Assembly: GCA_016209905.1 (NCBI GenBank)
Contig: JACQVG010000118.1
Location: 1 to 34,571 of the forward strand
Origin: Gemmatimonadota bacterium
GTDB taxonomy: Bacteria; Gemmatimonadota; Gemmatimonadetes; Gemmatimonadales; JACORV01
Length of the DNA stretch: 34,571 nucleotides
Reading direction: 5' to 3'
A program made the translations under genes and the position numbers. Every line of letters begins with the position of its first letter. Position 1 is the stretch's first letter. This document shows positions 4,511-7,953 of the stretch, piece after piece. The notes under the pieces are model-generated. The model saw only the letters and a list, made by a program, of their open reading frames with translations, made no database searches and was not told where the DNA came from.

Positions 4511-4539
4511 TTGACACCTCGTTTGACGAGGGCTAAGTT
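4511..4539 (+). promoter_or_regulatory. Sigma70-type promoter for the REC-GGDEF gene
   Basis: A perfect TTGACA -35 box (4511-4516), an exact 17-nt spacer and TAAGTT as a weak -10 (4534-4539, 3/6 to TATAAT). The expected start of transcription is near 4546. The ORF track translates the TTG of this box as a start codon, but reading it as a -35 element fits better with the GTG and Shine-Dalgarno sequence downstream. Confidence 0.6.
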
Positions 4540-4546
4540 GAGCGTT

Positions 4547-4567
4547 TCTCGCGCGTTGCGAGAGGAG
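4547..4567 (+). promoter_or_regulatory. Leader hairpin abutting the ribosome binding site
   Basis: TCTCGC (4547-4552) pairs perfectly with GCGAGA (4558-4563) around a 5-nt loop. The 3' arm runs into the AGGAG ribosome binding site (4563-4567) that precedes the GTG at 4571. In the RNA this stem could limit ribosome access. Inferred from sequence only. Confidence 0.45.
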
Positions 4568-4570
4568 ACG

Positions 4571-5530
4571 GTGCGGACGCGGCCCACGATCATCTTCTTC
4601 TCCTCCGCGGGTCGCCCGGTGCCCGGCCTAGTGGCAACCTGGCTGGCGCGGAAGGGACTCCTCTCGGTGGAGATCAGCGACGCGGCGCAGATCGAAGCCA
4701 TGACCCAGCGCGCGCTCCCAGCCATGGTCCTGGTGGACGGGAACGCGGACCCGGCGCCCGGACTGGCGCTATGCCGTCACCTCAAGGCGGATCCGTATTC
4801 GGCCATCGTCCCGGTCGCCTTCCTCGAGGACGCGCACGCCGGAGATCGCGTGCACCAAGCCTTCGGCGCCGGCGCCGATGAGGTCCTGACCCCGATCTTC
4901 GATCCGGAGGAGCAGCGGTCGCGGCTCGATGTGCTGCTGACGCGCACCGAACGCAACGTGGCCGTGCATCCCTCGACGCGCCTCCCCGGCACGAGTGAGA
5001 TCGAGCGCGAGATCAAGCGGCGCATGGCCGCGGCGGAGCCCTTCGCGGTGTGCTATGCGGACCTCGACCACTTCAAGGAGTACAACGACCGATATTCGTA
5101 CGGCGACGGGGACCGGGTGATCCTGAACCTGTCCCGGATTCTCCATGACGTGGTGAAGGGGCTGTGCGGCGCGCGAGGGTTCGTCGGGCATATCGGCGGC
5201 GACGATTTCATCTTGGTTTTGCCCGTCGCGATAACCGACCAGTGCTGCCGCGAGATCATCACGGCTTTCGACCTCCTGATCCCCTTGCAGTACTCGGAGG
5301 CGGATCGCCGCACCGGCTATTTCTTCGGGAAGGACCGGCAGGGCCAGCTGCACAAGGTGCCGTTCATGACGCTGTCGATCGGGATCGTCACGAGCGAGCG
5401 CCGGATCTTCACCCATCCGGCGCAGGTGAGCGCCCTCGCGACGGAGATGAAGAACTACGCGAAGACCCTGGCGGGTTCCGTGTTCGTCGAGGATCGGCGC
5501 CAGAAGGTCGCGGACGGGAAGGCGGGCTGA
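4571..5530 (+). CDS. Receiver-like domain + GGDEF domain protein (divergent diguanylate cyclase)
   Basis: A 319-residue cytoplasmic protein. Residues ~5-130 have a receiver fold: TIIFFSS strand, phospho-acceptor-like Asp in LVDG near 55, and GADEVLTP near the end. However, the acidic pocket on strand 1 and the conserved Lys (KP, here TP) are absent, so normal phosphorylation is doubtful. Residues ~155-310 form a GGDEF domain with metal-site DLDHFK and signature GGDDF (209-213). GGDDF replaces the fourth-position Glu with Asp; activity in c-di-GMP synthesis is possible but unproven. An insertion containing FFGKDRQGQLHKVPF precedes LSIGIV, a feature of orphan GGDEF proteins. I prefer the GTG at 4571 (AGGAG upstream, opening into strand 1) over the TTG at 4511. 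The gene has its own promoter. Confidence 0.82.
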   Translation: MRTRPTIIFFSSAGRPVPGLVATWLARKGLLSVEISDAAQIEAMTQRALPAMVLVDGNADPAPGLALCRHLKADPYSAIVPVAFLEDAHAGDRVHQAFGAGADEVLTPIFDPEEQRSRLDVLLTRTERNVAVHPSTRLPGTSEIEREIKRRMAAAEPFAVCYADLDHFKEYNDRYSYGDGDRVILNLSRILHDVVKGLCGARGFVGHIGGDDFILVLPVAITDQCCREIITAFDLLIPLQYSEADRRTGYFFGKDRQGQLHKVPFMTLSIGIVTSERRIFTHPAQVSALATEMKNYAKTLAGSVFVEDRRQKVADGKAG

Positions 5531-5533
5531 AGG

Positions 5534-6262
5534 TTGAACGCGACGTGCCCCGGCTGCGACACGGTGTTCCGGATCGATCCGGCGAAGGTGCCGGCCGGCG
5601 GCGTGCGCGCCCGTTGCTCGGTGTGCGCCACGGTGTTCGCAGTCGGCGCGCCAGCGGCGATTGCGCGCCCGGAGGCGGTCGCCGTGCTGGCCCCCCCCCC
5701 GGTCGCCTCCGAGGCGGCCCCTAGCCCAGCCCCCGCGGCGCCGCTTCCGGTGGCCCCGCCCGTGGCTCCACCGGTTCCGGTGGCGCCGCCGCGCCGCCCT
5801 GCGGCTCCGGTCGCGTCGCCCTTCGCCGGGGCGCGTGGCGTCGCCCCTGCGGCTCCGGCCGGCACGCCTCCGAGTGCGCGGCCGCCCTTGGCGGTCAGGC
5901 CCGCCGTGGCCCCGCGCTCCCCGCGGCCGGCCCCGACCGTGCCCGTCCCGCAGCCCCCTCCGGAACCAGCGGCGCCTGCGCCGCCGCCTGCCGCCCGGGT
6001 CATCAATCCCTTCCTGGTGCAGGACCCGCAGGTCAAGGCCCGCCGCCTGGCGCGCGCCCTGATCTCGGATCTGGTGTCCTACCACCCCGCCAAACGGGCG
6101 CAGGGTTTGAAGGACGGGACCATCAAGGAGATCTTTGCCGAGGAGATCAAGAAGAGCTACGAGGAGTACGTCGGGCAGATCGGGCCCGAGACGGCGCAAT
6201 CCACGACGCACTTCCAGGACGCTCTCAACGAGATCCTCGCCGGCGGACAGAAGATCTTTTGA
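5534..6262 (+). CDS. MJ0042-type zinc-ribbon protein with Pro/Ala-rich linker
   Basis: A 242-residue protein in three parts. Residues 1-37 are an MJ0042/zinc_ribbon_4 motif (CPGC...CSVC, with VPAGGVRARC between). Residues ~40-155 are a low-complexity Pro/Ala/Val linker that includes a C10 tract in the DNA. Residues ~156-242 are a compact helical domain (KARRLARALISDLVSY, then KEIFAEEIKKSYEEYV). Myxobacterial and Gemmatimonadota zinc-ribbon proteins show a similar layout, often near signalling genes; the function is unknown. The first possible start after the upstream stop is TTG at 5534, three nt downstream of that stop. The 3' end overlaps the next gene as TTGA. Adjacency to the GGDEF gene suggests co-transcription. 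Confidence 0.75.
   Translation: MNATCPGCDTVFRIDPAKVPAGGVRARCSVCATVFAVGAPAAIARPEAVAVLAPPPVASEAAPSPAPAAPLPVAPPVAPPVPVAPPRRPAAPVASPFAGARGVAPAAPAGTPPSARPPLAVRPAVAPRSPRPAPTVPVPQPPPEPAAPAPPPAARVINPFLVQDPQVKARRLARALISDLVSYHPAKRAQGLKDGTIKEIFAEEIKKSYEEYVGQIGPETAQSTTHFQDALNEILAGGQKIF
5691..5700 (+). repeat. C10 homopolymer inside the zinc-ribbon gene
   Basis: Ten consecutive C residues encode part of the Pro-rich linker (LAPPPV). A one-base slip would shift the frame after the zinc ribbon and remove the C-terminal domain. It is also a likely place for a sequencing indel, although the frame shown is intact. Confidence 0.85.
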
Positions 6263-6798
6263 TCTCGATTGTGGGGCTGGCCGCGGCGTCCTACTTGCTT
6301 GGCTCGCTGCCCACCGCCAGCCTCCCGGCACGGCTGGTCTCGACCCTCGGGTCGCGAGGGACCGAAGCACTCGTCCGGCTGCTTGAGCTGCTGAAAGGAG
6401 TGCTGGCGGTGAGCCTGGTCGGGGCGGGAGCCGACCCAGTCGCGCAGGCCATGGCGGCGACCGCCGTGGTGGCGGGCGATCAGTGGCCGTTCCGGGGTCA
6501 GGGTCGCCGTGGCACGGGCCTGGCCACCGCGGCGGGGGCCCTCACCGTCGTCACCCCCTTGGCGGTCCCGGCCTGGGGTTTTCTGTGGGCGCTCGGCTAC
6601 GTCGCCTCGGGCTACCGCGCTGCCGGCACCGTGGCGGCGACGCTGCTGCTGCCCCTGCTCCTCGGTGTCGTGGCGGGATGGCCGTTTGGCCTCATCGTTC
6701 TGCCAGCGTGCCTGATGGTTGCTGAGCGCCGTCGCGATTCCCTGCGGCGCATCCTGCTCGGGACGGAGCCCAAAGACCACTGGCGCAGCGGGTCCTAA
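6259..6798 (+). CDS. PlsY-like membrane protein lacking key acyltransferase motifs
   Basis: A 179-residue protein with about five hydrophobic segments, matching the frame of PlsY (acyl-phosphate:glycerol-3-phosphate acyltransferase). It begins SYLLGSLPTASLPARL like PlsY motif 1 and ends with RRRDSLRRILLGTEPK, like PlsY's RHReNIkRLl-GtE tail. The conserved GSGNxGATN stretch after motif 1 is missing, and the GHxFP...GGKGVAT loop reads GDQWPF...RGTGLAT, losing His and Lys. It is also shorter than the ~200-residue family norm. It may be a non-catalytic paralogue or have a changed substrate. TTG 6259 overlaps the preceding stop (TTGA); GTG 6271 is an alternative. prfB follows after 44 nt. Confidence 0.68.
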   Translation: MISIVGLAAASYLLGSLPTASLPARLVSTLGSRGTEALVRLLELLKGVLAVSLVGAGADPVAQAMAATAVVAGDQWPFRGQGRRGTGLATAAGALTVVTPLAVPAWGFLWALGYVASGYRAAGTVAATLLLPLLLGVVAGWPFGLIVLPACLMVAERRRDSLRRILLGTEPKDHWRSGS

Positions 6799-6842: not shown

Positions 6843-7953
6843 ATGATCGCCACCGAAGTACGCGACAGGCTGAGGGAGCTCGATCGCCGGCTCACCGAAC
6901 TTCGAGGCTACCTTTGACGTCGATGCCAAGGTAGCTCGCCTCGCGGCGCTCGATGCGGCCATGGCCGCCCCGGGTTTCTGGGACCAGCCCGACGCCGCCC
7001 GCCAGACCGTCACGGAAGTCAAGACCCTGAAGCGCTGGACGCAGCCGTACCACGAGCTGCGCCGGCGCTTGGATCATGCCCTCGAGCTGTGCGACCTGCT
7101 CGACCAGGAATCGGACGCCGCGATCGAGCGGGAGCTGGAGGCGGAGGCGACGGAGCTGGCGGCCGCAGTTGAGCGTCTCGCCCTCGAGACGTTGCTCCAG
7201 GACCCGGAAGACGCGCTCGGCGCTCTGCTCACGATCCACCCGGGCGCGGGGGGCACGGAATCGCAGGACTGGGCCGAGATGCTGATGCGGATGTACCGGC
7301 GCTGGGCCGAGCGGCGCGGCTTCGGCGTCAGCGTGCTCGACCTGGTGCCCGGCGAGGAAGCCGGGATCAAGTCGGCGTCGGTGGAGATTAAGGGGCCATA
7401 CGCCTGCGGGTTTCTCAAGGCCGAGAAGGGGGTGCACCGGCTGGTGCGCATCTCGCCGTTCGACGCCCAGGCGCGTCGCCACACGTCGTTCGCGTCGGTC
7501 TTCGTCTATCCTCTCGTGGATGAGACGATCGAGATCGAGCTCCGGGAGGAAGACATCCGGATGGACGTGTTCCGCGCCTCCGGGGCAGGCGGCCAGCACG
7601 TGAACAAGACCTCGTCGGCGGTGCGCCTGACGCATCTGCCTACGGGAATCGTCGTCTCATGCCAGCAGGAGCGGTCCCAGCACAAGAACCGGGCGGTCGC
7701 GCTGAAGATGCTGAGGGCGGCGCTCTATCAGCGGGCGTTGGACGAGCGCGAGAAGAAGCGCCAGGCGCTCGAAGCGACCAAGACCGACAATTCGTGGGGG
7801 AACCAGATTCGCTCCTACGTCTTCCAGCCGTACACGATGGTGAACGATCACCGGACGGAGCTCAAGGTGAGCGACGTGCACCGGGTGATGGACGGAGACC
7901 TTGACCCCTTCATCGAAGCGTACCTCAAGAAGTCCGGCGGGACGAGGCGATGA
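6843..7953 (+). CDS. prfB: Peptide chain release factor 2 with programmed +1 frameshift
   Basis: RF2 reads UGA and UAA stop codons and triggers peptide release. The gene is split: 24 codons from ATG 6843 end in TAC CTT TGA (stop at 6915-6917). Skipping T6915 continues in the long frame (GAC at 6916), giving LRGYL-DVDAK as in E. coli RF2, 369 residues in total. The stop-recognition tripeptide SPF is at 204-206 and the catalytic GGQ at 249-251, nearly the same numbers as E. coli. The ORF track starts at the internal ATG 6961 and misses the first ~39 residues. The join is 6843..6914 with 6916..7953. lysS overlaps the end by 4 nt, an arrangement known from other bacteria. No clear Shine-Dalgarno precedes the ATG. 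Confidence 0.95.
6900..6918 (+). promoter_or_regulatory. Programmed +1 ribosomal frameshift site of prfB
   Basis: CTTCGAGGCTACCTTTGAC lines up codon for codon with the E. coli site (CTT AGG GGG TAT CTT TGA C): a slippery CTT, an in-frame TGA and the following C that weakens termination. The SD-like stimulator is weaker here (GAGG against AGGGGG) but correctly placed. Low RF2 leads to pausing at UGA and slippage, which is autogenous control. Confidence 0.93.

Follow-up and report, generated by a model that had tools for sequence, protein, structure and literature searches.

A conserved PlsY-like membrane protein that lacks the PlsY active site, probably a pseudoenzyme, in one small family of Gemmatimonadota

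Here, we describe PlsY2, a membrane protein predicted to have the PlsY fold but not the PlsY active site, encoded at positions 6259 to 6798 of the forward strand in the window (the entire 34,571-nucleotide stretch of Gemmatimonadota DNA that was analyzed). PlsY, which is widespread among bacteria, catalyzes the entry step of phospholipid synthesis and has a strongly conserved substrate site. The best explanation of the comparisons described below, and in our judgment a reasonably probable one, is that PlsY2 is a conserved, non-catalytic PlsY-fold paralog, that is, a pseudoenzyme, seen in this analysis in a single small family of the phylum.

The PlsY2 gene, its neighbors, and the canonical copy

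The PlsY2 reading frame is open over 179 residues from a TTG start, which overlaps in the sequence TTGA with the stop codon of the preceding gene (5534 to 6262, forward strand), encoding an MJ0042-type zinc-ribbon protein with a conserved C-terminal domain. The intact frame and its TTGA coupling had been described in the initial annotation of this DNA, and the junction is the same, TTTTGATC, in the congener G001; in the three sister-genus orthologs (G004, G005, and G006) it reads TGATG. Given this translational overlap, the arrangement suggests that PlsY2 is co-expressed with the zinc-ribbon protein and is perhaps its partner. The C-terminal domain of the zinc-ribbon protein (INPFLVQDPQVKARRLARALISD...LNEILAGGQ) is strongly conserved and is also retained alongside prfB in further families of this order. 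Upstream of it, a gene at 4511 to 5530 (forward strand) encodes a receiver-like protein with a GGDEF domain (GGDDF). Downstream of PlsY2 is prfB (release factor RF2; 6843 to 7953, forward strand) with a programmed +1 frameshift, the site of which, CTTTGAC at 6912 to 6918, is of the usual type and the same in the three family relatives that were read.

Compared with the Pfam profile G3P_acyltransf (PF02660), PlsY2 scored 54.1 bits, above the gathering cut-off of 24.1, with the match spanning only profile positions 42 to 164 of 164. Against the NCBIfam equivalog profile for PlsY (TIGR00023), its score of 45.1 bits was below the cut-off of 137.2, and the canonical copy from the same genome reached 163 bits. 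By homology and predicted fold, PlsY2 is a member of the PlsY family. A practical caution is that annotation by family profile will name this gene plsY.

The initial annotation had taken the protein for a paralog, and the search of the genome (89.5% complete) bore this out, recovering a canonical PlsY on another contig (C107; 166 bits) with the motifs GSKNLGATN, GGKGVAT, and THRGN, along with one PlsX. Because the canonical PlsY and PlsX are encoded elsewhere in the genome, PlsY2 is a paralog, and the possibility that it is the sole PlsY of the genome was ruled out by the copy on C107. Genomes with two plsY genes have been described before, for example, that of Lactobacillus johnsonii (PMC11625735).

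Loss of the PlsY active site

The key residues of Aquifex PlsY are Ser35, Asn37, Thr41, Arg45, His92, Gly102, Gly103, Lys104, Ser142, His177, and Asn180 (PMC5700162), and these were transferred to PlsY2 through an alignment that included 33 rows of canonical Gemmatimonadota PlsY, a few of them duplicates. These residues were invariant in the canonical rows, with Ser35, Arg45, His92, Gly102, Gly103, Lys104, Ser142, His177, and Asn180 among those present in all 33, apart from Thr41, which was present in 32 and replaced by serine in one.

All three PlsY motifs are affected in PlsY2. The loop between transmembrane helices 1 and 2 (TMH1 and TMH2; residues 21 to 34, positions 6319 to 6360, forward strand) lacks the entire motif 1, GSGNxGATN...R, with Ser35, Thr41, and Arg45, so that about 18 to 19 residues are gone. 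In the former motif 2 and phosphate-hole loop (residues 73 to 86, 6475 to 6516, forward strand), GH...GGKGVA has become GD...RGTGLA, with aspartate in place of His92 and RGTG in place of GGKG. Both changes had been pointed out in the initial annotation, and the alignment agrees with it. The former motif 3 (residues 154 to 163, 6718 to 6747, forward strand) reads RRRDSL where canonical proteins have HRxNxx, with arginine at the position of His177 and either serine or aspartate, depending on the alignment, at that of Asn180. The initial description of a preserved PlsY tail therefore holds for the GTE sequence and the LRR arginine, which are still present, and fails for His177 and Asn180, the replacement of which it had overlooked. 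As remnants of the active site, one or two loop glycines can be recognized and possibly the serine of LGSRG, which aligns to Ser35 in a region where the alignment is unreliable.

In Aquifex PlsY, single substitutions leave little activity: 4.8% for S35A, 1.1% for R45A, 2.4% for H92D, 7.4% for K104A, 1.0% for H177Q, and 4.6% for N180A (PMC5700162). By analogy, the combined losses should abolish the activity of PlsY2. Of the two functions proposed initially, lipid sensing is conjectural, and altered acyl transfer appears unlikely for this copy because the contacts to glycerol-3-phosphate and acyl-phosphate are gone. PlsY2 might also be a PlsY of low activity in which the missing loop is supplied otherwise, for example, by a heterodimer with the canonical copy (PlsY1). 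The retention of the fold in the structural model is compatible with such an arrangement, but PlsY2 no longer has the motif 1 loop, His92, GGKG, His177, or Asn180, any one of which the Aquifex enzyme cannot lose without forfeiting most of its activity (PMC5700162), and a weak second enzyme is unneeded given the canonical copy, so we consider this reading very improbable.

Orthologs and distribution

The gene order zinc ribbon, PlsY2, prfB, with a PlsY2 ortholog, was found in four of the six family relatives (G001, G004, G005, and G006). The assemblies of the other two, G002 and G003, are without the locus, the zinc-ribbon neighbor included, and a true loss of PlsY2 cannot be read from them. 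Four loci from other families of the order could be read, and in each of them prfB follows the zinc-ribbon gene without a PlsY in between. Among 395 Gemmatimonadota genomes, PlsY2 matches at an E-value of 1e-35 were obtained in five, all from one family, and a phylum-wide distribution was ruled out at this threshold. Weak matches to the PlsY profile (approximately positions 20 to 57; E-values of 0.002 to 0.007, under the cut-off) were observed within a long frame in many genomes of the order (G008 to G039), for example, at G012:C11:123567-123677; these may reflect a shared short motif or chance.

The ortholog in the congener G001 occupies the same place and is 57% identical to the window protein; motif 1 is missing from it as well, and GGKG is replaced by DELG, but His92 is kept. 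A lone mutation or a misassembly was ruled out by this independently assembled genome with the same motif 1 deletion and a lost GGKG. The sister-genus orthologs (G004, G005, and G006) are 50 to 54% identical to the window protein and retain SGSVGALNAFR and GHN.P...GKGGKG and, according to the alignment, Ser35, Arg45, His92, and Lys104; in these proteins, Thr41 is replaced by leucine, Asn180 by lysine, and residue 177 is glutamine in two and histidine in one. Two sister-genus orthologs are available as public records (PMIK01000315.1, Gemmatimonadetes bacterium fen_1246, our L060, and JADGQW010000079.1, Gemmatimonadales bacterium Chersky.24_23, our L061), and these, like that of G005, resemble the window copy in place and at about 50 to 54% identity but differ from it in keeping both motif sequences, with Thr41, Asn180, and mostly His177 gone.

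Neither of the two outcomes that the initial annotation had named as refuting its reading was fully obtained: the congener shares the motif losses in kind, and the sister genera keep motifs 1 and 2, though without Thr41 and Asn180. As judged from these sequences, the loss of motifs 1 and 2 is specific to the window genus, and Thr41 and Asn180 are already gone in the sister genera. Because both congeners lack motif 1 at nearly equal length (33 and 34 residues from GSLP to LKG), we take the deletion as ancestral to the two, with constraint acting later; the alternative is two independent deletions.

Selection on the PlsY2 frame

The fully gutted form of PlsY2 is represented by two genomes only, that of the window and G001. 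Between these congeners, the differences per codon position were 0.31, 0.21, and 0.51 (49, 33, and 79 differences; chi-square p = 4e-5), and the NG86 estimate of dN/dS was 0.31 for PlsY2, close to the 0.25 obtained for the canonical gene in the same two genomes. In a codon model fitted to five orthologs, omega = 1 was rejected on the two congener branches with a likelihood ratio statistic of 104. We rely on this rejection of neutrality alone, because saturation of the synonymous sites drives the fitted omegas to the bound or close to it, so that their size is meaningless. Neutral simulation, run at a third-position divergence below that observed, yielded approximately 28% identity and left the frame open in both copies in 2% of the runs, compared with the 98 identical residues of 176 (56%) that were observed. 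Comparison of the two gutted copies indicates that the PlsY2 frame is under purifying selection, in agreement with the initial proposal that the gene is retained rather than decaying.

Slow decay, in which the protein lost its importance and the active site went first, with the frame still open by chance and through the overlap with its neighbors, would account for the apparently stepwise loss of the active site from the sister genera to the window genus and for the fast evolution of PlsY2 (faster than the neighboring genes; the two congeners differ at 40% of the amino acids in PlsY2 and at 15% in prfB). We nevertheless regard decay as unlikely: at an amino acid divergence above 40%, the frame is open in both congeners with a pronounced codon-position asymmetry, omega = 1 is rejected, and the neutral simulations end at far lower identity with few open frames.

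The conservation is unevenly distributed along the protein. At the former active-site positions (residues 21 to 34, 79 to 86, and 155 to 161), 6 of 29 residues are identical between the congeners, compared with 92 of 147 in the rest (Fisher p = 6e-5, indicative only, as the regions were picked with the motifs and the congener differences known); in the TMH1-TMH2 loop itself, the count is 2 of 14. Between the sister genera G004 and G005, 19 of 20 motif 1 positions and 7 of 8 positions of the GGKG loop are kept. The most conserved PlsY2 segment in the congener comparison is TMH4 (residues 87 to 98, 6517 to 6552, forward strand), with 11 of 12 residues identical. In PlsY, this helix contributes to both the acyl-chain groove and the phosphate hole (PMC5700162), and its constraint in PlsY2 would fit either retained acyl-chain binding or a structural role.

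The same conservation of TMH4, together with that of the segments flanking the former phosphate loop and the presence of Ser35, Arg45, His92, and Lys104 in the sister-genus proteins, could be taken to mean that PlsY2 has gained a new enzymatic activity, as a remodeled acyltransferase or a phosphatase working with other residues. Such an enzyme seems to us rather improbable, as the low identity at the former active-site positions leaves no shared replacement site there and no new cluster of conserved polar residues was noticed.

Predicted structure

Modeling of the structure, proposed in the initial annotation, predicted a PlsY fold: the AlphaFold2 model of PlsY2, built with 42 relatives, has a pLDDT of 90.8 and a pTM of 0.85, although the input alignment contained canonical PlsY and is biased toward this fold. 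The five best solved matches identified with Foldseek were all PlsY chains (TM-scores of 0.76 to 0.79, rmsd of 3.6 to 4.0), the best being 5xj7 with a TM-score of 0.78. For a control model of a sister-genus PlsY2, the pLDDT was 95.8, with TM-scores of 0.79 to 0.85 and rmsd of 2.3 to 3.0. Hence, the body of the PlsY fold is predicted to be retained in PlsY2, which is less like PlsY than the loop-keeping sister copy. Compared with Aquifex PlsY (PF02660, TIGR00023; 5xj5 to 5xj9), PlsY2 is alike in its profile match, predicted fold, and C-terminal GTE but differs in having no motif 1, His92, GGKG, or motif 3 histidine and asparagine and in scoring far below the NCBIfam cut-off.

Origin and other PlsY-like proteins

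In the trees, which have long branches, PlsY2 clustered with moderate support with PlsY-like paralogs of Ignavibacteria and Bacteroidota (support of 91 and 76), and a common clade of PlsY2 with Gemmatimonadota PlsY1 was not rejected (p-AU = 0.083), so PlsY2 may have originated by local duplication of PlsY1 or by transfer.

The second copies of Ignavibacteria and Bacteroidota (L066:5920-6612, L071:2108-2764, L115:3884-4498, L118:5998-6618, L096:890-1513, and L105:5965-6615, as well as L108 and L134) resemble PlsY2 in having partly lost the active site. Unlike PlsY2, they keep Ser35, His92, and His177, with GGRG for GGKG and no Asn180, and their neighbors are different, gpsA and HtrA-like genes. 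All eight aligned copies have lost Asn180 and carry GGRG, and Arg45 is mostly replaced. In L066, L071, L115, and L118, the PlsY-like gene directly follows gpsA, several of the copies precede an HtrA-like gene, and a canonical plsY precedes gpsA in L066, L071, and L115. These copies may represent a further line of PlsY pseudoenzymes or neo-enzymes. Separately, PlsY-like proteins of Dehalococcoidia (L103:1990-2628, L117:5965-6591, L119, L121, and L126) carry GGGNxGA(V/L)N, and the two that were read, from L103 and L117, have GGQG in place of GGKG and lack the histidine and asparagine of motif 3.

Implications

In the scenario that we propose, one small Gemmatimonadota family has a second plsY copy, located between the zinc-ribbon gene and prfB. 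Its glycerol-3-phosphate site would have been damaged first, through the loss of Thr41, Asn180, and usually His177, and in the window genus the motif 1 loop would then have disappeared in its entirety, as would the phosphate loop GGKG, an order of losses that we infer. Because the seven-helix body appears to be still maintained, the product is most likely a non-catalytic PlsY-fold membrane protein. The role that we consider most likely would be that of a regulatory or binding partner produced along with the zinc-ribbon protein; in this role, PlsY2 might still hold an acyl chain or act on PlsY1 or PlsX. More speculatively, and with considerable doubt on our part, the zinc-ribbon-coupled PlsY2 and the related line in Ignavibacteria and Bacteroidota might together form a class of non-catalytic PlsY-fold membrane proteins controlling the initial step of phospholipid synthesis by binding either acyl chains or the active PlsY or PlsX.

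The comparison of these sequences, in two genomes, points to the combination that characterizes a pseudoenzyme, namely lost catalytic residues, purifying selection, and a paralog of the active type. No report of a PlsY pseudoenzyme was found in the literature searched, and a conserved paralog without the PlsY substrate site would be such a protein. The series from canonical PlsY through the sister-genus PlsY2 to the PlsY2 of the window makes it possible to test what part of the fold carries out a second function.
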